From Bacillota bacterium (GTDB taxonomy: Bacteria; Bacillota; SHA-98; UBA4971), in NCBI GenBank assembly GCA_024653485.1, contig JANLFY010000013.1, forward strand, positions 1 through 64,000: a DNA stretch of 64,000 nt. Reading direction: 5' to 3'. The position numbers and the translations under genes were made by a program. Below the pieces are notes generated by a model. The model saw only the letters and a list, made by a program, of their open reading frames with translations, had not been told where the DNA came from and made no database searches. This document shows positions 447 to 10,629 of the stretch, piece by piece (the first letter of the stretch is position 1; every line of letters starts with the position of its first letter).

Positions 447-2375
447 CTAGATCTCGTGGGCAACGCGCATGCCCTCGAAGACCGCGTGGGTTATGCGCCG
501 TGGTCTCCACGCGTCCCCGATGACGTAGTAGTCTATCCCGGCTCCCTCGAGCTGCTTGGCCAGTCCGTCCTCAGGCGAGGATCCCACCGAGATCACCACC
601 GAATCGAAGTCCGCAAGCGTCTCGGTTTTCCCGTCCTTCTCCACGGTGACGTCGCGTTCGCCTATTGAGGCCAGCTTCGCGCCGGTCACGATGTTGACAC
701 CCTTCCCCGCCAGGCGATCCAGCAGGAGCGCCCCCACGAGCGGCCCCACGTCGGACGCGACGCGCGGCAGCATTTCAATGATGGTGACCTCATGTCCTTT
801 CTCGGCCAGGAACTCAGAGGTCTCACACCCCACAAGTCCGCCTCCGATGACCGCGACCCTCCTCCCTACAGTAGCTTTGCCGCTCAGCACGTCCCAAGAC
901 ATGACCACGTTCGGCCGGTCCGCCCCGGGCGCAGCCACGCGCGCCGGGCGGGCGCCGGTCGCGATCACGACGACGTCAGGTTTCTCGGCGCGAATGGCAT
1001 CCAAGGTGGCCTCCTTGTTCAACCGGACGTCCACCTTGAGTCGGCCCATCTCTCTTGCGAGGAACTGCCTGAACGTGGCGATCTCCCCCTTCTCGGGCGT
1101 CGTTGCCGCCAGCGGGAGCTGGCCGCCAAGGCTCGACCCTTTCTCCCAGAGCGTGACTTGATGGCCCCGGAGTGCCGCCACGCGCGCGGCCTCCATGCCG
1201 GCGGGTCCGCCGCCGACCACTAGAACTTTTCGGGCGACTGGGGCCTTCGCCATGGCGAACGCCTCCTCGAAGCCCGCGCGGGCATTCACCGTGCATCCAA
1301 TGGGGTGGTCCTGGAACAGCTCGTCGATGCAGCCCTGGCAGCAAGCTATGCACCTTCGAAGTTCGTCCACGCGCCCTTCAGCTATCTTGCGAGGCGTCTC
1401 AGGATCCGTCAGAAGTTGCCGCCCCATGGCAACGAGATCGGCCTTGCCCTGGGCGATGAGCCCCTCCGCAACGTCCGGGTCGTTGATGCGGCCTACCGCT
1501 ATGACCGGGATCTTCACGACCGACTTTATCCCGCTCGCAAGATCCGCGAGGCACGCGTGAGGCATCGCCATGGGCTGGATGATCCACACCGCGGATTCGT
1601 ACACCCCCGCCGACACGTGCAACGCGTTGATGCCCTCACGCTCGAGACGCCTGGCGACCTCTCTCGTCTCGTCCAGGGTGAGCCCCCCCGCCACCTTCTC
1701 GTCGGCGCTCATACGGTAGATGACAGGGAAGTCGGGCCCCACCGCGCGCCGCACGGCGTGCACGACCTCAAGCGGGAAGCGCAGCCTGTTCTCGAGGGGC
1801 CCCCCGTACTCGTCCTTCCTCTTGTTGGCGTACGGGGACAGGAACTCATTGATGAGATAGCCGTGGGCACCGTGGATCTCCACGGCATCGAATCCCGCCG
1901 CTTTCGCGCGGCGCGCCGCCTCGCCGAAAGCCCGCACGATCATGTCGATCTCGTCCTTTGACATCTCCTTGGGCGTCTCGCCTTTCGTCGGGTCGGGCAC
2001 CGGCGACGGCGCCAGGAGTGGCTCGCCCGTGACGTCAGAGGTCGTCTGCCGACCGCCGTGGTAAAGTTGGACGGCGATCTTCGCGCCGTGAGCGTGGACG
2101 ACGTCAACGAGGCTGCGCAGTCCCGGGATGAGCTTGTCCGAGTAGATACCGACTTCGTTTTGAAAACCCCTGCCGGACGGGTGAACGTACGAGGCCTCCA
2201 CGATGATGAGGCCGACCCCTCCCCTCGCCCGTTCCGCGTGGTAAGCCCGCAGCCTGCCGGTGATCGAGCCGTCCTCGAACGCGTAGTTCGTGACCATGGG
2301 TGGCATGACGATCCTGTTGCGAAGCTCCATGTTCCCTATCCTCATAGGGCTTGTGAGATGAGGAAACCCTGCCAT
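447..2375 (-). CDS. NADH:flavin oxidoreductase / enoate reductase (2,4-dienoyl-CoA reductase type)
   Basis: A 642-residue flavo-iron-sulfur enzyme of the old-yellow-enzyme/2,4-dienoyl-CoA reductase family, likely cytosolic and reducing activated C=C bonds with NAD(P)H. The N-terminal half is the FMN TIM barrel (MELRNRIVMPPM near the start, HGAHGYLINEFLSPYANKR in the middle). Next comes the cysteine cluster CIACCQGC...GC that holds a [4Fe-4S] centre. The C-terminal half has two dinucleotide-binding motifs, VLVVGGGPAGMEAA and VAVIGGGLVGCETSEFL, for FAD and NAD(P). Length is normal for the family. The frame is open to 2420, but the ATG at 2375 is preceded by AAGGGAG and begins with the usual MAGFPHLTSP, so I chose it. 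It is the last gene of the leftward redox island. The physiological substrate is unknown. Confidence 0.9.
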   Translation of the reverse strand: MAGFPHLTSPMRIGNMELRNRIVMPPMVTNYAFEDGSITGRLRAYHAERARGGVGLIIVEASYVHPSGRGFQNEVGIYSDKLIPGLRSLVDVVHAHGAKIAVQLYHGGRQTTSDVTGEPLLAPSPVPDPTKGETPKEMSKDEIDMIVRAFGEAARRAKAAGFDAVEIHGAHGYLINEFLSPYANKRKDEYGGPLENRLRFPLEVVHAVRRAVGPDFPVIYRMSADEKVAGGLTLDETREVARRLEREGINALHVSAGVYESAVWIIQPMAMPHACLADLASGIKSVVKIPVIAVGRINDPDVAEGLIAQGKADLVAMGRQLLTDPETPRKIAEGRVDELRRCIACCQGCIDELFQDHPIGCTVNARAGFEEAFAMAKAPVARKVLVVGGGPAGMEAARVAALRGHQVTLWEKGSSLGGQLPLAATTPEKGEIATFRQFLAREMGRLKVDVRLNKEATLDAIRAEKPDVVVIATGARPARVAAPGADRPNVVMSWDVLSGKATVGRRVAVIGGGLVGCETSEFLAEKGHEVTIIEMLPRVASDVGPLVGALLLDRLAGKGVNIVTGAKLASIGERDVTVEKDGKTETLADFDSVVISVGSSPEDGLAKQLEGAGIDYYVIGDAWRPRRITHAVFEGMRVAHEI

Positions 2376-2781
2376 GCAGCACTCGCTCCCTTCCTTGGTG
2401 GTTCTGTAGGTCAGCGCCATGGGGCGCGCCCAGGATCAGTCTTGCCAATGTGCGGGAGCGTATGCTGATGGCAGGGTCAGGCGCCTCCACGAGGCATCGA
2501 GCACGTGGCAAGGGCAGAAGGTTGGGCGACTCACCGCTCGAGCTCGCCCTGCCGCCCGGGCGGGCTGCGCGGTCTGGACAGTCCGCAGTCTGTCCGACTG
2601 ACGTTCCAGAGCTCAGAGCCCGGGACCCTGAGCTCTGGGTTCACTCGGGTCTGGGCTCGCGGTGGGCCCGGACTCAACGCCGTCCCCAAGCGGGGCGCCT
2701 TAACGAAGTGTCGGGAGCTTTTCTGCACCCTCACGGGAGCTTTCGACCTGGCTCAAGCATTCGTGCTGCTCGCTGGGACGT
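2376..2781. other. Intergenic, no gene seen
   Basis: About 400 bp between the flavin oxidoreductase and the ferredoxin. Open frames here are short and of biased composition. I see no convincing promoter, RNA or terminator. Confidence 0.4.
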
Positions 2782-3189
2782 CTAGCCATGGATGAGCCTG
2801 GGCAAGCACCGGACGCACACCCAAAGGCTGTCGCCCTTGAAGCGGCACGGCATGAGCACCTCAGCGCCCTCGCCCGCCCCGCACAGGAAGCAGCGTTGGG
2901 TGATTTGAGCTTTTGGTTGGCCCGTAGCAGCCGCACGCTCCTCCGCACGCTCCGCCGCGCGTTCCCTCGCGGCTTCCTCCGAGAACTCCGGCGCCTCTCT
3001 CTCTTCGATGGAAAGCGCACCGGTGGGGCACACCGCGAGGCAGAATCCCGCGCCGTCGCATAGCTCTTCGCGGACCACCTTCGCCTTGCCGTCCACGATC
3101 TCGATAGCGCCTTCCGCGCACGGCGTCACGCAAAGGCCGCACCCGTTGCATTTCTCCTCGTTTATCTTCACTATCTTCCTTACAGCCAT
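2782..3189 (-). CDS. 2x[4Fe-4S] ferredoxin with C-terminal zinc-ribbon-like tail
   Basis: A 135-residue electron carrier. The N-terminal 60 residues hold two cluster motifs, CNGCGLCVTPC and CDGAGFCLAVCP; the second is of the form CxxxxxCxxxC rather than the classical CxxCxxC. An acidic/basic helical stretch follows, and the C-terminus has CFLCGAG...C...CVRC, two Cys pairs that look like a zinc ribbon or a further metal site. The start is the ATG at 3189, directly preceded by GGGAGGACG; an earlier in-frame start at 3225 lacks this. It sits 165 bp downstream of the CooS homologue, so it is a plausible electron partner for that enzyme (inference). Confidence 0.88.
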   Translation of the reverse strand: MAVRKIVKINEEKCNGCGLCVTPCAEGAIEIVDGKAKVVREELCDGAGFCLAVCPTGALSIEEREAPEFSEEAARERAAERAEERAAATGQPKAQITQRCFLCGAGEGAEVLMPCRFKGDSLWVCVRCLPRLIHG

Positions 3190-3354: not shown

Positions 3355-5223
3355 TCAGATGCCGAGCGCCCGCCGCTTGCCGGCGATATGCCTCTCGATT
3401 CCGTCCACCGCGGCCACGGGGTCTGTCTCAACGGCGAGCTTGCCGCCGGTCAGGCCCTCCACGTCGCGGGTAAGGAGGTTCACCACGTCGGTAGCCCCGG
3501 TCACCGGCGGAACCGGCGAAACGTGCGTATACAGCCCCAGGGCGACCGCGGAGAACGCGTCGATCACGGCCTTCTGCTCCATGTACTCGGGCGCCGTAAC
3601 AGCGACGGGCAACGCCGCCGTGTCGACGCCAAGCGCGCCGGCCACTGCGCCGACGAGGAGCGCGAGCCGTCCAGTGTCAGTGCACGTGCCGAAGCTAAGC
3701 ACAGGCGGGAGGCCAAGCGCCTTGCACACGGCCTTGAGACGGTCCCCCGCCCACTCTTGCGCCTCCAGTGAGTTCAACCCGGCCACTTGGCAGGCCGCGT
3801 TGCCACATCCCGCCGACAGCACGAGGAAGTTTCGGCGGATGAGCTCCTTGGCCACTGCCACTGTCATGGTGTCCTGGCCGCCTCCCTTAAGGGTGGTGCA
3901 GCTCACGAGAGCCACGACTCCGGCTATGTCGCCCTTCTTGATGACCTCGAGGAGCGGCTCGAGCGTGCCACCGAGGGCGCCTAGCACCGCCTCTGTCGAG
4001 AAGCCCGTCAGGATCTTAGTGCGCCCCAGGTCGCGCGCCGCTCGTCCGGCGGCCTTCCGGCGCTTGAAGTTCTCTATGGCGATGCCGACGATCTCCAGGG
4101 CCTGCTCCCGCACTCTCTCGGGATCATACACGATGCGTTTCTCGACGCCGGGCACGCCTATGAGCCGGGATACCGCGACTAGAGTCGCGCCGTACTTCTC
4201 GGCGATCGAAGCGAGGGACGGCAGCGAGCAGTTCATGTCCATTGCGAATACGTCGACCGCGCCAGTAGCGAGCACGAACTCCTGATTCAGCCAGTTTCCC
4301 GTGAGGCCCGCGAAGACATCGTCGCACGAGAGGCGCTGCATCATCTCCTGGCCGGTCTCGATTGACCCCGCGATACGAAGGCCCTTCGCTCCCGCCTCCC
4401 GAGCGCGTCGCTGCACGTCCTCCGAGCGAGCTGCCTCGACCAGCGCCATCCCCACGAAAGGCTCGTGGCCGTTGGGAAGTATGTTGACGTAGTCCGGGTC
4501 GAGAATCCCGAGGTCCACGTAGGCTTCGTGAGGTGCGGGTGTGCCGAAAAGGGCGTCCTGGACGATCTCGAGAGGGACGAGCGCGCCGTAGCAGCTTGCC
4601 ACGCCGAGGCGCAGGGCTGTCTTGGCGAGGGACACATAATCGCCGTCGATATTGGTCATCGCCCGTGCAGTGGAGTCCACTAGCTCGCTGATCGGCCCGC
4701 CGGGGAACACGCCGAGCTCGCGCCACACCTTTTTTCGCGTCTCTGGTGCAAACGCCGCGACTGCCACCGACTCTTCGGCGCTGTCCTGATAGAGCGCTGC
4801 GAGCATGGCGTCTGCCGTCGCTTTCTCGTAGCCCGCGTTCCCCGGTGCCACGCCGAGCGCCCGTGCGAGGAGGTCGAGTTTTGCCCTGTCGCGGATCTCG
4901 AAGGGCGTCTTGCCAAGCGCCGTAGCTTTGAGCGTCTTGGCTACCTCGCGCGCATGGAACGAGTAGGCAGCTACCCCCATGTTCGCCCTGTGAACCATGT
5001 TTCGCATCACCATGCCGTTGCCGTCGATCCCGCACGCGCCCCTGTCGGCCTTCTTCGTGATACGGCACGGCCCCATGGAGCACAGCTGACACGTGATGCC
5101 TTGATCGCAGAACGTACAACGCAGTCCCTGCGCTTCGAATCGTTCGACCACGCTCGTGACTCCGGCTCCCTGCATCTCCTCATGCATCTCCCGAATGGAC
5201 TCGTGCTCGCTTACGGGTTCCAC
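3355..5223 (-). CDS. cooS: Carbon-monoxide-dehydrogenase-family catalytic subunit (CooS type) with altered active-site ligand
   Basis: A 622-residue CooS homologue; canonical members oxidise CO at a Ni-Fe-S C-cluster. The N-terminus has the B-cluster cysteines Cys45, Cys48, Cys53 and Cys64 within CQLCSMGPCRI...CG. A CxxC pair (Cys36, Cys39) lies where the D-cluster normally sits, and the usual second D-cluster Cys is a Thr. Expected C-cluster ligands are present at His253 (NGHEP), Cys332 (NCSLPSL), Cys442 (SCTTLKGG), Cys473 (AGCGNAAC) and Cys514 (GTCTD). The ligand normally found in the CCTGNE motif is replaced: the motif reads SIETGQE, with Glu289 in place of Cys. Start is GTG at 5223 after AAGGGGAGGAGAG; the frame is open to 5307. 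It follows an Rrf2 regulator by 154 bp. No cooC or ACS genes are nearby. The reaction may not be CO oxidation. Confidence 0.88.
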   Translation of the reverse strand: MEPVSEHESIREMHEEMQGAGVTSVVERFEAQGLRCTFCDQGITCQLCSMGPCRITKKADRGACGIDGNGMVMRNMVHRANMGVAAYSFHAREVAKTLKATALGKTPFEIRDRAKLDLLARALGVAPGNAGYEKATADAMLAALYQDSAEESVAVAAFAPETRKKVWRELGVFPGGPISELVDSTARAMTNIDGDYVSLAKTALRLGVASCYGALVPLEIVQDALFGTPAPHEAYVDLGILDPDYVNILPNGHEPFVGMALVEAARSEDVQRRAREAGAKGLRIAGSIETGQEMMQRLSCDDVFAGLTGNWLNQEFVLATGAVDVFAMDMNCSLPSLASIAEKYGATLVAVSRLIGVPGVEKRIVYDPERVREQALEIVGIAIENFKRRKAAGRAARDLGRTKILTGFSTEAVLGALGGTLEPLLEVIKKGDIAGVVALVSCTTLKGGGQDTMTVAVAKELIRRNFLVLSAGCGNAACQVAGLNSLEAQEWAGDRLKAVCKALGLPPVLSFGTCTDTGRLALLVGAVAGALGVDTAALPVAVTAPEYMEQKAVIDAFSAVALGLYTHVSPVPPVTGATDVVNLLTRDVEGLTGGKLAVETDPVAAVDGIERHIAGKRRALGI

Positions 5224-5377: not shown

Positions 5378-5797
5378 TCATTCCGGTTTCTGCTGCTGCT
5401 CGGCGAGGGACTTCAGAGTCAGGTTCTCAAGGAACGACACGAACTTCTCCTGGACCCCGACCCAGCTTTGCCTCAGGCGACAGACTTCCCATCGGTCGCA
5501 CGCATCGCGCCCGAGAAGACAGCGGTTGACCGCCACTCTTCCCTGGATGGCCTCTACTATCTCGAGGGCAGTGATTTCCGACGGATCGTGCGCAAGCGAG
5601 AAGCCGCCGCGGGGACCTCGGTGAGAGACGACTATGTCCGACACTGCCAGCCTCTGAAAGATCTTGCGGAGGAACCCTTCAGGAATGCCCTCGGCGCGAG
5701 CGACTCTCTCCACCGAGAACACCGTGCCGTCAGGGTAGCTCGCCATATGCGACAGCGCGCGCAATGCGTAGTCGGTGTTTCTCTTGATGAACTCCAT
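5378..5797 (-). CDS. Rrf2/IscR-family transcriptional regulator
   Basis: A 139-residue winged-helix regulator of the Rrf2 family, begun at the ATG 5797 (MEFIKRNTDYALRAL, the usual Rrf2 N-terminus). The winged helix covers about residues 8-75, with RGPRGGFSL as the wing. Three cysteines, Cys93, Cys100 and Cys106, lie in the loop where IscR-type proteins bind an Fe-S cluster, so it is probably a cluster-sensing regulator. Its promoter at 5901-5929 contains an IscR-like inverted repeat, suggesting autoregulation. It is upstream of, and co-oriented with, the CooS homologue, and likely controls it. Confidence 0.9.
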   Translation of the reverse strand: MEFIKRNTDYALRALSHMASYPDGTVFSVERVARAEGIPEGFLRKIFQRLAVSDIVVSHRGPRGGFSLAHDPSEITALEIVEAIQGRVAVNRCLLGRDACDRWEVCRLRQSWVGVQEKFVSFLENLTLKSLAEQQQKPE

Positions 5798-5894: not shown

Positions 5895-5929
5895 AGGACT
5901 ATTTTAGTCCTATATATTCCGCGTGTCAA
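5895..5929 (-). promoter_or_regulatory. Sigma-A promoter with IscR/Rrf2-type operator upstream of the rrf2-cooS genes
   Basis: Read on the minus strand, TTGACA (5924-5929) and TAAAAT (5901-5906) are separated by exactly 17 bp. The -10 box lies inside a 7-3-7 inverted repeat, AGGACTA-aaa-TAGTCCT (5895-5911). Its core, GACTAAAATAGTC, fits the published IscR type-1 pattern GACTRWWWYAGTC. Bound protein would block the -10 element, so repression by the Rrf2 protein just downstream is the simplest reading. Confidence 0.8.
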
Positions 5930-6143: not shown

Positions 6144-6995
6144 TCACCGCGAGCACGGGCAAAATCTTTCGTAGCCCATGAGCTTCGCCGGCCCAGCCGC
6201 GGTCACGCCGTAGAAAATGATCGGCTTGCCATGCAAAGCTGACAGGATGCTTTCGCCGGTCCCGTTCGCGAGGACTGTCCCTGTGGAAAGGACGAGGTCG
6301 GCCCAAGCGACGACCTCCGCGTTGCGCTCGGCGCTCTCGATCATCAATCCCTGGCGGGTCGTTCCGATGTTCGTCGGGTCCATGTCTGTGACCCGAACCT
6401 GAAAGCGGTCGTCCCCTGCCAGGGCGCTTACGATCGCAGGCTGAAGGCCGATGACGGCCACGCGGGGGCGGCTACCGCGGAGCGCGACCAGCCGAGCCTG
6501 TCGGGGTAGGGCCGTACGAGTCGGCCGGGCGTTCCTCTCGCTCGCCCCTTCCCCAGCCCTGTCCCCGCTCGCAAGATGCCCGCTCGTAAGGCGCTCCACG
6601 TGCTCCAGCAGGAGCCGCGCGCACTCTTCGGGCTCGGTGTCGCGGCAGTGGACAGTGTGGTCGACCAGACCGAGGCTGCGCATTACGGCGTTGCAGGTGG
6701 CCACGAACACCGCGCGCTCGTAGTTCGTGCGCAGCGGGAGCGCGATGACATCTGCGAGCCTACCACGAAACGGCGCGGGCATATCAGTGTACGCCTGGCC
6801 GCAGCTCGCTCGGAAATGCGCCTGGATCATGACTTCCTTGCCCTTGAGCAGCGGGAAGTCGCGCCTGGTCGGCGCGCCGATGGCCTCCTCCGGCGCGAGC
6901 GGCCGCGCGGTGACTACCTCAACTGCGTCGTCCGCCAAGCCGGTAGACCGGGTCAGCTCTCTGAGCCTCTCTCTGCAAAGGTCAAGGATCTCCAT
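6144..6995 (-). CDS. DUF364-type putative metal-chelation protein
   Basis: A 283-residue protein resembling the DUF364 family (Rossmann-like, proposed heavy-metal chelation). The N-terminal part contains KGKEVMIQAHFRASCGQAYTD. The C-terminal Rossmann-like part has RPRVAVIGLQPAIVSALAG, TDMDPTNIGT and ADLVLSTGTVLANGT, and it ends GYERFCPCSR as is usual for the family. Residues of about 140-165 form a low-complexity insert. It is 39 bp downstream of the modA-like gene and co-oriented, so a role in molybdate or tungstate handling is likely, but its biochemical function is not known. Confidence 0.72.
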   Translation of the reverse strand: MEILDLCRERLRELTRSTGLADDAVEVVTARPLAPEEAIGAPTRRDFPLLKGKEVMIQAHFRASCGQAYTDMPAPFRGRLADVIALPLRTNYERAVFVATCNAVMRSLGLVDHTVHCRDTEPEECARLLLEHVERLTSGHLASGDRAGEGASERNARPTRTALPRQARLVALRGSRPRVAVIGLQPAIVSALAGDDRFQVRVTDMDPTNIGTTRQGLMIESAERNAEVVAWADLVLSTGTVLANGTGESILSALHGKPIIFYGVTAAGPAKLMGYERFCPCSR

Positions 6996-7034
6996 CTCGA
7001 GTCGTCCTCCTTTGTCCGACGCGTAGCACGCCGC

Positions 7035-7811
7035 TCACTCCCCAGGAGTGCCAAATCCGCACTGGCTGAGCGCCTTCCTCGCCTCCAGGGAACGCAGGTA
7101 GTCGAGGAACCTCTTCGCCTCATTCTCGTGCCGCGTCCCTTTCACCATGGCCGCTTCGAACACCACCTTCTCGTGGGACTCAGCCGGTGCCTTGGCGACC
7201 GCTTTGGCCTTCGTCGACTTGTGCAGAGTGCTTCCGAACACGAACCCGGCATCCGCGTCTCCCATTTCCACGTACATGAGGACCTGCTGCACGGTCCTCG
7301 CGAACACGAGCCGTTTGGCGAGCAGCTTGTCTAGCCCCATGTGCTGCAGGACCTGCGTGGCGTACGTTCCCGCCGGCACGATCCGAGGATCGCCGATCGC
7401 GATCCTCTCAACGGACGGGCTCGCCAGCCACTTCCACGGGTCACCCTCCACTCTCGTGCCGGCGGGCACCGCTAGGACGATCTCGTCATGCGCGATAGCG
7501 AACCGCGTCTCCTGGGCGATGAACCCGTCTTGCTCGAGCGCGTCCATCTGGCCCCCGCCTGCGGGAAACACCACCGCGTCGACCGGGGCGCCTTGCTTCA
7601 CTTGAGCAGCTATCGCCCCCGCGCTCGCGAACGTAAACGACACTGAGACGTCGGGGTTTGTCGATTCGAACGATCCTTTAATGAGCTGCAAGGCGTCTAG
7701 CAGCCCAGCGCCAGCGCCGACGACGATCTCTCTTCGGGCGGCATCCCCGACCCCTGCGACAGCGCCCAGGAACACCGCCACGGCAACGCAAGACACCAAG
7801 ATTGGCCTCAT
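7035..7811 (-). CDS. modA: Molybdate/tungstate ABC transporter substrate-binding protein
   Basis: A 258-residue extracytoplasmic binding protein of the ModA family. The N-terminus from the ATG at 7811 is a typical signal peptide (MRPILVSCVAVAVFLGAVAG), without an obvious lipobox. The mature part has VVGAGAGLLDALQLIKGSFE, a variant of the ModA opening AAASL..A, followed by TFASAGAIAAQVKQGAPVDAV, PAGTYATQVL and DADAGFVFGST, all oxyanion-pocket regions of the family. The start is supported by GGAGG 9 bp upstream; the longer frame to 7886 is non-coding in look. Last transport gene of the modB-modC-modA order. Confidence 0.9.
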   Translation of the reverse strand: MRPILVSCVAVAVFLGAVAGVGDAARREIVVGAGAGLLDALQLIKGSFESTNPDVSVSFTFASAGAIAAQVKQGAPVDAVVFPAGGGQMDALEQDGFIAQETRFAIAHDEIVLAVPAGTRVEGDPWKWLASPSVERIAIGDPRIVPAGTYATQVLQHMGLDKLLAKRLVFARTVQQVLMYVEMGDADAGFVFGSTLHKSTKAKAVAKAPAESHEKVVFEAAMVKGTRHENEAKRFLDYLRSLEARKALSQCGFGTPGE

Positions 7812-7904
7812 TCCCGTCCGACCTCCACCGATCCAGCGTATGTGGCATGGCCGGCGGGTCGACTCCGACCCGAACATCTCCGGCACATGCCGCGGCGAAT
7901 GGAC

Positions 7905-8591
7905 TCATACTTGGGAGGAGCTGACACCGGACTCAAGGCTCTGCTTCCCACGATTTAGATAGAGTATCGCGTCGCCCAGCCTCTCGGCCTCCTCGCGATC
8001 GTGGGTCACGAGCACGAACGGGACCGCCCACCGGCGCTGCAGCGCAAGGAGCTCATTCTGGACGGCAACCCGCGTCTCCTCGTCCAGCGCGTTCCACGGC
8101 TCGTCGAGAAGGAGCACCTCCGGCTCGGTCATGAGGGCACGAGCGAGCGAGACCCGCTGCTGTTCGCCTCCGGATAGCTGACACGGGTACCTGTCCTGCA
8201 GGTGCACTATGCGGAGCATCTCCAATACGTCCAGGACCGTCATGCGGAAGCCGCGCCCGCGCTTGCAGCGTCCTCCGATGCCGTACATGACGTTTTGCTT
8301 GACCGTCATGTGGGGAAAGAGAGCGTAGTCCTGAAAAACGTATCCCACGCGCCTGCGCTGCGGGGGCACGTCTATCCCGCGCCCGGAGCAGTACAAGACT
8401 CTGCCGCCGAGCTCAATGATCCCCGTGTCCGGCCTCTGCAGCCCGGCAATGCAATCGAGCACGGTGGTCTTCCCTGCGCCCGACGGTCCAAAGATGACGA
8501 TGATGCCCGACTGCCACGAAAACGATACCTCGAGAGTGAAGTCAGGGAGCCGTTTCGCTATCTCCACCTTGAGAGGACCCATCGCTCTCAC
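7905..8591 (-). CDS. modC: Molybdate ABC transporter ATP-binding protein (short form)
   Basis: A 228-residue ABC ATPase. Walker A is GPSGAGKTT, the Q-loop lies in GYVFQDYALFPHMTV, the signature is LSGGEQQRVSLARAL and Walker B is EVLLLDEPWNALDEE, with HDREEAERLGD as the switch histidine. Canonical ModC is about 350 residues with a C-terminal Mop domain. This protein ends after the ATPase core, so molybdate feedback on the transporter through a Mop domain is absent. Start is GTG 8591 or the ATG at 8582. It lies between modB and modA. Confidence 0.88.
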   Translation of the reverse strand: MRAMGPLKVEIAKRLPDFTLEVSFSWQSGIIVIFGPSGAGKTTVLDCIAGLQRPDTGIIELGGRVLYCSGRGIDVPPQRRRVGYVFQDYALFPHMTVKQNVMYGIGGRCKRGRGFRMTVLDVLEMLRIVHLQDRYPCQLSGGEQQRVSLARALMTEPEVLLLDEPWNALDEETRVAVQNELLALQRRWAVPFVLVTHDREEAERLGDAILYLNRGKQSLESGVSSSQV

Positions 8592-8648
8592 GCACCGCCC
8601 CGCCCACCTGAATCGCGCACCGCCTCGCTCCCCAATCCCGCCCGCCGC

Positions 8649-9341
8649 TCAGCTCCTTCGAGCCCGCCGGAATCTGCCGGCCTGTCTCTCCGACCACACT
8701 CTGCTCAGATACGTGGCACCGAACCCTAACGAAAGCATGACCGCCACGAGCAGGCTCGCAGACCGCATGTCCCCCGACTCGGTCGCCACGTAGATCGCCG
8801 TTGGCATGGTCAGGGTGCGTCCCGGAATCGACCCCGCCACCATGAGAGTGGCCCCGAACTCTCCGAGGGCTCGCATGAACGCAAGAAGAGCGCCTGCCAC
8901 GAAACTCGGCCACGCGAGAGGCAAGGTGATCGTGAAGAACACCCTCGCCTCCGAAGCCCCCAGCGTGCGCCCGGCTTTCTCGAGAGACTCATCGATGGAA
9001 TCGAGCCCCGCCCTGAGCGTGCCGTACATTAGCGGGAAGGCAACGACCGCCGATGCGATGACAGCCGCCCACCACGTGAAAACCACGCGGATTCCCAGGA
9101 AAGCTTCGAGAAACCTTCCCACGGGCCCGTTCTTCCCCAACAGCATCAGGAGGACGAACCCTGTGACTGTGGGAGGCACGACCATGGGCAGCGTGAGCAG
9201 CGTGTCGAGGAGCAGCTTCCCCGCGAACGAGAACCTTCTCATCGCCCAACTGGCGATCGTCGCGACGCACGCTACCACCAGGGTCGCGACCACGGCGACC
9301 CGCACTGAAAGCAACATCGGGCTGACCCAGTCCACGGGCAT
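8649..9341 (-). CDS. modB: Molybdate ABC transporter permease
   Basis: A 230-residue inner-membrane permease with about five to six hydrophobic segments (for example SVRVAVVATLVVACVATIAS and PTVTGFVLLMLLG). The EAA coupling loop is present as SIDESLEKAGRTLGASEARVF, and the typical ModB stretch ALGEFGATLMVAGSIPGRT follows. It is the first gene of the modBCA set and follows the molybdopterin-binding gene by about 50 bp. Confidence 0.92.
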   Translation of the reverse strand: MPVDWVSPMLLSVRVAVVATLVVACVATIASWAMRRFSFAGKLLLDTLLTLPMVVPPTVTGFVLLMLLGKNGPVGRFLEAFLGIRVVFTWWAAVIASAVVAFPLMYGTLRAGLDSIDESLEKAGRTLGASEARVFFTITLPLAWPSFVAGALLAFMRALGEFGATLMVAGSIPGRTLTMPTAIYVATESGDMRSASLLVAVMLSLGFGATYLSRVWSERQAGRFRRARRS

Positions 9342-9391
9342 TCCGACTCATACCCCCGCGCGTCTCACTCGTCCTACCGCAGCGCGCTCGC

Positions 9392-10414
9392 CTAGGCTCC
9401 CCTTCCGAAAGGACACCGCGGAAACGAACAGGTCTTGCACCCAAGGCAAAGTCCACCATGTCCGTACTCGGCTACGTCAGCGGGGCTCAAGGTCTCGCCA
9501 GCAAGGAGCCGGGCCAGCAGGAGATCGAAGAACGCCCGCGGGCGCGCCAAGATGCCGGCAGGCACTCCGACAACGGGAGTCGTGCCGTGGTAGGCAAGGA
9601 GCGTCATGGCTCCGGGCGACACGGGCGCCCCGTAGAACGCGACACGCGCCCCGGCAAGCTCGATAGCCCGCGAAGTGCAGTCATCGGGAGACATGCCCCC
9701 GGTCACGAGGACCATGTCCACCTCGCGCCCGATCATCGCCAGAACGGCTCGCGCAATTCCGTCTGCGTCGTCGGGCACGACCACCGATTCCGCAACCGTG
9801 CTCCCATACTCCGCAAGCCTGTCTCGGACAAGGGGAGTAAACGCGTCCTTCACCCGGCCCTCATAGACTTCGCGTCCCGTCACGACCACACCCGCGCTGA
9901 CGGTCCTGAAGGGAACGACTCTGATGATCGGGTCATTCGCCACGACGCCGGCCGCACGCGCGAGGCGCTCCCTCTCGACGACGAGCCCCCTCACCTTGAC
10001 CTTTGCAACCAGGTCCCCAGGCGACACGATTGAGTTGGTGTGCCTGGTCGCGATGAGGAGCTCGCCGATCGCGTTCACGGCAATCAGCCGCCGTGCATCC
10101 ACCTTGAGAAGACCCTTCAGGGTGGCGCGCACGTCCGCCCACGCCTCTCCGGGCATCTCCACAGTCGTCCCGTCGCCCGAGATCGTTGACGCCAAGCATC
10201 GGGCCGCATCATCCTCGTGCACTTCGTCCTTCTCCAACTCCAGGACGTACACGGCGCATTTGCCGACGCGCCTGAGCGTCGGGATGTCCTCAGGCAAGAC
10301 TCGGTGGCCTCGCCTCAAGACCGCCCCTTTGCGCTGACCGGGGACTATCTCCGTGATGTCGTACGCGAGAGTCAGCCCGACGGCGTCTTCTATCCGCACC
10401 TCACGTGATTTCAC
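9392..10414 (-). CDS. Molybdopterin-binding protein (MoaB/Mog-like domain)
   Basis: A 340-residue protein with a C-terminal molybdopterin-binding domain: VVTGREVYEGRVKD, DMVLVTGGMSPDDCTSRAI and VVGVPAGILARPRAFFDLLL. The N-terminus (VRIEDAVGLTLAYDITEIVPG) resembles the MoeA-like opening of this stand-alone family. The C-terminus ends in a Cys-rich tail (CLGCKTCSFPRCPFG) that could bind metal. Start is GTG at 10414 with GAGG upstream; the open frame to 10453 adds nothing conserved. Position ahead of modBCA fits a role in Mo/W cofactor assembly or in sensing cofactor supply for the aldehyde oxidoreductase nearby. Confidence 0.85.
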   Translation of the reverse strand: MKSREVRIEDAVGLTLAYDITEIVPGQRKGAVLRRGHRVLPEDIPTLRRVGKCAVYVLELEKDEVHEDDAARCLASTISGDGTTVEMPGEAWADVRATLKGLLKVDARRLIAVNAIGELLIATRHTNSIVSPGDLVAKVKVRGLVVERERLARAAGVVANDPIIRVVPFRTVSAGVVVTGREVYEGRVKDAFTPLVRDRLAEYGSTVAESVVVPDDADGIARAVLAMIGREVDMVLVTGGMSPDDCTSRAIELAGARVAFYGAPVSPGAMTLLAYHGTTPVVGVPAGILARPRAFFDLLLARLLAGETLSPADVAEYGHGGLCLGCKTCSFPRCPFGRGA

Positions 10415-10629
10415 GCCGCACCTCGTCCTCTTGCCAGTCGCGCGTGCCCCCAAGCGGCTCGTGCCTGGCGTGCGTAGCTGGAACCCGCAGTCGAGTAAAA
10501 GCGAGCGAACGAACGAGCGAACGAGCGAACACGTCGTTCACTACCAGTTTCGACATACGCGCAGAAGATCCTGCGCCGGAAGCCTGCTTCGGCAGACGAC
10601 GCGCAGGGGAAGCCCAGGAAACGTCGGCA

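Follow-up and report, generated by a model that had tools for sequence, protein, structure and literature searches.

A CooS-V type enzyme with a predicted hybrid cluster in a Bacillota operon with the regulator subfamily and ferredoxin type of class III HCP genes

Results

The gene run and its promoter

The window, which is the whole stretch of 64,000 nucleotides analysed here (contig JANLFY010000013.1 of a Bacillota bacterium), carries on a single strand the gene order Rrf2 regulator, CooS-V and ferredoxin, with a flavoenzyme last (Table 1). The sequence GGGGAGGAG lies directly 5' of the GTG start of the cooS-V gene, and this ribosome-binding site was rated good. Ahead of the Rrf2 gene stands a promoter whose -10 box falls within the predicted palindromic operator GGACTAAAATAGTCC. 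The operator has no second site in the 3.0 Mb genome at up to two mismatches, and it is kept in relatives of the class, with one base changed in some. Such a layout suggests an autoregulated repressor. The Rrf2 gene lies directly upstream of CooS-V in all eight loci of the class that were fetched; the ferredoxin is retained in most of these, and the flavoenzyme mainly within the genus. Further upstream, at 7035-10453, the window holds a molybdate transporter run (modA, modC, modB) and a gene for a molybdopterin-binding domain protein. This run is shared with one relative (G002) but with no other, and is therefore probably unrelated to the cooS-V operon.

Table 1 Features of the cooS-V operon and residues of its enzyme, in window coordinates
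Feature	Position	Strand	Remarks
OYE/FadH-type Fe-S flavoenzyme (NAD(P)H oxidoreductase)	447..2420	-	End of the same gene run
Ferredoxin, FrdX-type 2[4Fe-4S] N-terminal domain and C-terminal CxxC...CxxC module	2782..3189	-	ATG at 3187-3189; directly downstream of cooS-V
CooS-V type hybrid-cluster enzyme (clade D, structural group D-1)	3355..5223	-	622 aa, GTG start; from homology, alignment, tree and model fold
Glu549 codon	3577..3579	-	CooS-V Glu556, HCP Glu494; invariant in alignments A1 and A2; role from PMC9311411
Cys514 codon	3682..3684	-	Equivalent to Cys521, which bears the persulfide in oxidised CooS-V
Cys473 codon, cluster ligand	3805..3807	-	From alignment
Cys442 codon, cluster ligand	3898..3900	-	From alignment
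Cys332 codon, cluster ligand	4228..4230	-	From alignment
Glu289 codon	4357..4359	-	CTC on the + strand, read as GAG; at the Cys295 position of CODH-II; Glu295 of CooS-V
His253 codon, cluster ligand	4465..4467	-	Invariant in alignments A1 and A2
Cys36-x2-Cys39 motif, type III D-cluster (subunit-bridging cluster)	5107..5118	-	From alignment; type III according to PMC6344411
Rrf2-family regulator, Cys triad C-x6-C-x5-C	5378..5797	-	Directly upstream of cooS-V
Predicted palindromic operator GGACTAAAATAGTCC	5896..5910	-	Conserved in relatives
Sigma-A type promoter TTGACA-N17-TAAAAT	5901..5929	-	-10 box within the predicted operator; upstream of the Rrf2 gene

The metal site and the D-cluster

The original prediction, made from the letters alone, placed a glutamate where canonical CooS proteins have a C-cluster cysteine. 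Alignment with CODHs of solved structure agrees: the segment GSIETGQE lines up with GMCCTGNE or GICCTGNE of the CODHs and with GSIESGQE of CooS-V from C. hydrogenoformans, so that Glu289, and not a cysteine, occupies the ligand position. A glutamate is found there in more than 110 of 126 aligned homologues, nearly all of which had been picked for closeness to the query, and the substitution is a clade trait, not a product of chance. The five other ligands that had been named (His253, Cys332, Cys442, Cys473 and Cys514) are likewise retained, although the list lacked a seventh residue, Glu549. By homology to CooS-V, the hybrid-cluster residue set of one His, two Glu and four Cys is complete in the window protein, which may therefore work like HCP without being HCP. 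The set of one His and five Cys that holds the C-cluster of Ni,Fe-CODHs is, by contrast, broken by the glutamate at the Cys295 position. Their acid-base pair, His93 and Lys563, survives only in part, with the Lys retained as Lys551 and the His replaced by Tyr87; in the alignment, Glu549 stands two residues ahead of Lys551.

Two further features were correctly read but had been taken for oddities. The distance from Glu289 to Cys332 is 43 residues, as against 38 in three true CODHs, and the D-cluster position has Cys36-x2-Cys39 with Thr44. Because C. hydrogenoformans CooS-V has the same spacing of 43 and the same CxxC D-cluster, these are traits of the clade, and on the alignment we rejected both the spacing and the D-cluster Thr as marks of novelty.

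The residue pattern of the window protein matches exactly that of structural group D-1 of clade D, which Inoue et al. (2019, PMC6344411) defined by a type III D-cluster, Glu for the first C-cluster Cys, Tyr for the acid-base His, a retained Lys, and a Glu two residues before this Lys. As a side observation, a gene of the Alkanophagales (L107:10001-11851) combines the Glu ligand with a type II D-cluster that lacks Cys39, and thereby departs from the correlation reported between Cys295Glu and Gly41Cys. In another genome (locus L126 on G005:C78, about 6200-7600), residues 345-609 of a CooS-V are fused straight to the end of a ferredoxin and the first half is gone, through either a deletion or an assembly error.

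Family placement and structure

The window protein scores 482 bits against the Pfam Prismane/CODH family and 772 bits against the NCBIfam CODH equivalog TIGR01702 (cut-off 478), so that automatic annotation would name it a CODH; annotation based on this model credits genomes with a CO metabolism that they lack. It lies outside the HCP family (TIGR01703, NF003658), reaching 37.3 bits against a TIGR01703 cut-off of 360.8. Its closest sequence in the PDB is CooS-V (7B7Q), at 709 bits and about 53-55% identity to the C. hydrogenoformans protein, while true CODHs score at most 404 bits. In a quick tree made from 67 proteins, for which HCP served as outgroup, all 51 proteins with Glu289, the window protein included, fall on one branch (SH-aLRT 92), within which the window protein and its class relatives make up one subclade and C. 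hydrogenoformans CooS-V lies in the other. An AlphaFold2 model built from 43 D-1 sequences (pLDDT 92.7, pTM 0.92) matched CooS-V in a fold search with a TM score of 0.98 at 1.3-1.4 Å, compared with 0.94-0.95 at 1.7-2.1 Å for true CODHs. The window protein and C. hydrogenoformans CooS-V (PDB 7B7Q, 7B9A) have the same fold and the same seven cluster residues, and differ in their sub-branch of the Glu clade.

What is known of CooS-V comes from Jeoung et al. (2022, PMC9311411), who found a nickel-free cluster of the Fe/S/O hybrid type, [4Fe-3S]/[4Fe-2S-S-2O]. The enzyme neither oxidises CO nor reduces CO2, and it reduces hydroxylamine slowly, at about 20 per M per s with an artificial donor and not a natural ferredoxin. 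The NO reductase activity of the purified C. hydrogenoformans protein was not above background, and compared with HCP the protein has redox potentials that are lower by about 300 mV. In the same study, the C295E variant of CODH-II lost both nickel and CO oxidation. With this solved homologue as a guide, it is safe to infer that the window protein should, with near certainty, carry a nickel-free cluster of the CooS-V type. The original prediction had proposed just such a non-nickel hybrid cluster, which fits the PDB match, the fold and the Glu289 clade alike. We conclude that the window protein is almost certainly a hybrid-cluster enzyme and not a CODH.

Prismane-family and ACS genes across genomes

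The gene at 3355-5223 is the only prismane-family gene of its genome, which is 98.9% complete. Its orthologue (82-91% identity) is also the sole prismane, CODH or HCP member in four relatives (G002, G013, G014 and G016), and a profile search for ACS (PF03598) found none in any of these five genomes; the remark that no acs gene is adjacent thus extends to the whole genome. A search with the HCP model found no match in the window genome, G002, G004 or G013. Other relatives in the class (G001, G004, G005 and G015) have ACS and CODH as well, and the sister genus (G006, G008, G009 and G010) lacks CooS-V but has a class I HCP. A general mutual exclusion of CooS-V and HCP was rejected: many Bacillota carry an HCP together with a D-1 gene, so that exclusivity holds only in the class of the window. 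C. hydrogenoformans itself has four true CODHs and an HCP besides CooS-V, none of which occurs in the window genome. CooS-V-type genes have been stated to occur only alongside other CODH genes (PMC9311411); contrary to this statement, the genomes with a lone CooS-V indicate that it can be the sole member of the family. Outside subscription papers, we found no report of genomes with CooS-V alone.

This gene content also bears on whether the window protein might be a genuine Ni,Fe-CODH that tolerates the glutamate and oxidises CO. TIGR01702 would have it so, and Inoue et al. (PMC6344411) cite one genetic hint of a D-1 protein in CO oxidation. Set against these are a genome without ACS or any other CODH, the replacement of the acid-base His by Tyr87, the inactive and nickel-free state of a CooS-V with the identical ligand set, and the fate of nickel and CO oxidation in CODH-II C295E. 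We give this reading almost no credence; the only 'CODH' of the window genome is very probably not a real one.

A regulator and operator common to CooS-V and class III HCP genes

The original prediction had overlooked the regulator, operator and ferredoxin, which point to an HCP-like role. The Cys triad of the Rrf2 protein is likely an Fe-S sensor, judging from its sequence. None of the curated models scored the protein above its cut-off (IscR 71 of 208 bits, NsrR 63 of 182, SUF regulator 82 of 111), and on these scores we rejected its identity as NsrR or IscR.

An exact search of 399 genomes of the phylum for the promoter-operator pattern TTGACA-N13-GGAnTAnnnTAnTCC returned 13 matches, against 2 for a control with the pattern reversed. 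Six of the 13 lie ahead of Rrf2-CooS-V and five ahead of Rrf2-HCP, where a class III HCP gene comes after an Rrf2 40-49% identical to that of the window; one is a stray, and one (in G302) reaches a contig edge with no readable gene and was therefore counted for neither side. Conversely, the same genomes were searched with the window Rrf2 as query, and its best 28 matches were set apart by a gap in score, 112 versus 93 bits. The neighbour is CooS-V for 9 of these 28, a class III HCP for 13, FrdX for 2 and neither kind for 4. The same Rrf2 subfamily thus stands beside class III HCP in 13 further genomes of the Bacillota, where the promoter-operator is usually the same as well. In another phylum, Zipacnadia, four loci have the order Rrf2-FrdX-CooS-V with TTGACA-N17 and TGGAnTAnnnTAnTCCA. 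A tree that also took in other Rrf2 proteins places the 28 and the four Zipacnadia members in one group (support 89/96), and in it both CooS-V-linked sets sit among the HCP-linked ones. By sequence clade, Cys triad and common operator, the window Rrf2 belongs to this HCP-linked subfamily. Class I HCP genes were rejected as sharing it, their Rrf2 proteins being on other branches.

It could be argued that Rrf2 and FrdX are incidental neighbours that say nothing about the role of the enzyme, as adjacency can be inherited, the eight loci of the class represent one lineage, and other D-1 lineages show varying neighbours. The same Rrf2 subfamily and operator, however, are found next to CooS-V genes of two phyla and next to HCP genes of several further families, and a hybrid-cluster gene or FrdX is missing from the vicinity in only 4 of the 28 cases, which leaves this reading very improbable.

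Some loci of the Rrf2 subfamily differ in arrangement. One of the two cases with an adjoining FrdX (L213 on G121:C5) has FrdX-Rrf2 ahead of a short remnant of HCP and an apparent intron-type reverse transcriptase, as if an hcp gene had been interrupted. Three loci of one genus (L203, L204 and L209, family f30) have the Rrf2 subfamily and the palindrome without an adjacent HCP, and their neighbours read like genes of the NADPH-FMN reductase and nitroreductase families.

The ferredoxin partner and related operons

FrdX is a ferredoxin that occurs with hcp (PMC1274295), and in the genomes studied here it was identified by operon position. The N-terminal domain of the window ferredoxin is 53-68% identical to FrdX proteins beside CooS-V or HCP, and at most about 37% identical to other ferredoxins of the loci. 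The C-terminal domain of about 150 residues found in FrdX of HCP operons is missing; in its place is a short CxxC...CxxC module that is common to Thermoleophilia ferredoxins adjoining CooS-V. The order Rrf2-FrdX-HCP of two genomes (G064 and G128) mirrors the Rrf2-FrdX-CooS-V of Zipacnadia, and in two others (G104 and G049) FrdX stands beside a CRP/FNR regulator and HCP. FrdX adjoins CooS-V in Zipacnadia, in Nitrospirota (with a CRP/FNR gene, L058) and in Methanoperedens. In C. difficile, NO raises hcp and frdX about 200-fold and each knock-down is NO-sensitive (PMC12915319); the regulator of that FrdX-HCP operon is HcpR.

We class the window operon as a variant hcp operon. It has in common with the class III HCP operons of the phylum the Rrf2 subfamily, the promoter-operator, an FrdX-type ferredoxin and homologous active-site residues, and differs in that its enzyme is of the CooS type with B and D clusters, and not an HCP. 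No Rrf2-FrdX operon has been described for C. hydrogenoformans CooS-V, and the neighbours reported for group D-1 are COG1063, HypA and HypB (PMC6344411), whereas the window has Rrf2 with its operator, an FrdX-type ferredoxin and no second CODH. Clade C cooS genes resemble the window in that Rrf2 precedes cooS and Fe-S or flavin partners lie nearby, clade C also having ferredoxin and FNOR (PMC3082573, PMC6344411), but unlike the window protein they keep every C-cluster cysteine. In the locus of L020, a gene whose acid-base positions hold a clade-C-like Tyr and Gln, the Rrf2 falls in another branch than that of the window.

Proposed role

An altered metal site, an HCP-type switch and an electron-carrier gene together suggest that CooS-V probably does the job of HCP. 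We infer the repressor mechanism, signal, substrate and electron route of the operon as follows. A dimer with the CODH fold would build a nickel-free Fe/S/O cluster on His253, Glu289, Cys332, Cys442, Cys473, Cys514 and Glu549, and would not oxidise CO. The Rrf2 repressor of the operon, with an Fe-S cluster on its Cys triad, would occupy the palindrome over the -10 box until NO or a similar oxidant harmed the sensor cluster and lifted repression. The FrdX-type ferredoxin would then pass electrons to the hybrid cluster, which would reduce NO, hydroxylamine or related nitrogen species. In the class of the window, CooS-V would in this way take the place held elsewhere by class III HCP behind the same regulator.

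As an overall explanation, a nickel-free hybrid-cluster CooS-V that is repressed by Rrf2, fed by an FrdX-type ferredoxin and active on nitrogen species is the best we have, and we hold it with moderate confidence. That CooS-V fills the role of HCP in nitrogen stress, as a reductive defence against NO or hydroxylamine, we likewise consider reasonably probable. The balance tips slightly towards a wider claim, that in this class and in Zipacnadia CooS-V is a stand-in for HCP at the hcp position behind an Fe-S-sensing Rrf2 and an FrdX-type ferredoxin; clade D would then amount to a second hybrid-cluster defence against reactive nitrogen, with an evolutionary origin of its own, and one present even where there is no real CODH. 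The substrate of CooS-V may nonetheless differ from that of HCP, given its lack of NO reductase activity, its weak turnover of hydroxylamine and its lower potentials.

The slow turnover of CooS-V and the redox-dependent opening of its channel could also suit a redox or NO sensor, or a regulatory protein with little catalysis, whose switch would be the morphing cluster and the redox-gated channel, and redox sensing has been proposed for clade D (PMC13056359). We regard this as very unlikely: the operon supplies a dedicated ferredoxin, the B and D clusters give the enzyme a full electron chain, and a second sensor would be redundant beside the separate Rrf2 sensor.

At the level of the enzyme, the idea of a hybrid-cluster CooS is not new, since group D-1 has been defined (PMC6344411) and CooS-V solved and assayed (PMC9311411); the Glu substitution, the proposal of a stress role, and the presence of Rrf2 ahead of cooS in clade C (PMC3082573) are also already known, and a recent survey (PMC13056359, 2026) notes that experimental proof of the role of clade D is missing. 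In the literature outside subscription papers, we found neither Rrf2, operator and FrdX beside D-1 genes nor the sharing of regulator and operator between CooS-V and class III HCP. The common regulator, operator and ferredoxin family give clade D a concrete hypothesis of nitrosative stress and a candidate native electron donor.

Neighbours of CooS-V genes in other lineages

Neighbours vary in the other D-1 lineages, and many CooS-V genes have no conserved ones. The survey cited above found no clear pattern for either clade D or class III HCP, with conserved neighbours lacking in 64% of the former and 75% of the latter. An octaheme cytochrome of the HAO family (8 CxxCH) comes next after several CooS-V genes of Methanosarcinales and Methanoperedens; such cytochromes matched HAO-like structures at E values of 3e-35 and 5e-26. 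One archaeal run (L060) comprises a rubrerythrin, a flavodiiron protein, a ferredoxin-thioredoxin reductase beta subunit, CooS-V and the octaheme cytochrome. Its flavodiiron protein matches 1YCF, a chain deposited as a nitric oxide reductase, at an E value of 2e-137, and this is the single case of an NO reductase homologue beside an archaeal CooS-V.

These neighbours bear on whether the hybrid-cluster enzyme might instead have another reductase job, for instance on peroxide, S-nitrosothiol, a sulfur oxyanion or another low-potential acceptor, with Rrf2 answering general redox or Fe-S stress and not NO. The rubrerythrin of the archaeal run would suit such a job, as would the very negative potentials of CooS-V and its lack of measurable NO reduction; iron, thiols and redox state are also among the signals that Rrf2 proteins sense, and both the ferredoxin and the OYE-type flavoenzyme of the window run are generic redox proteins. 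The HAO-family and NO reductase neighbours in archaea argue the other way, and the regulator subfamily and FrdX are common to HCP, whose best supported role is defence against NO. We therefore see a different reductase job as possible but rather unlikely, and prefer the reduction of nitrogen species.

Two further arrangements were observed. Two Methanoperedens loci (L085 in BLZ2 and L088 in METP1) combine, within 10 kb, a clade D gene of the Cys type, a CooS-V of the Glu type and, between the two, FrdX; an octaheme cytochrome adjoins them, and L085 has an HPP-family membrane protein as well. Both genomes carry a second CooS-V copy elsewhere (L095 and L092). In six loci of Desulfurobacteriaceae (L066, L069, L074, L083, L086 and L098), CooS-V and a regulator of the CRP/FNR family are two genes apart, a placement reminiscent of HcpR beside hcp.
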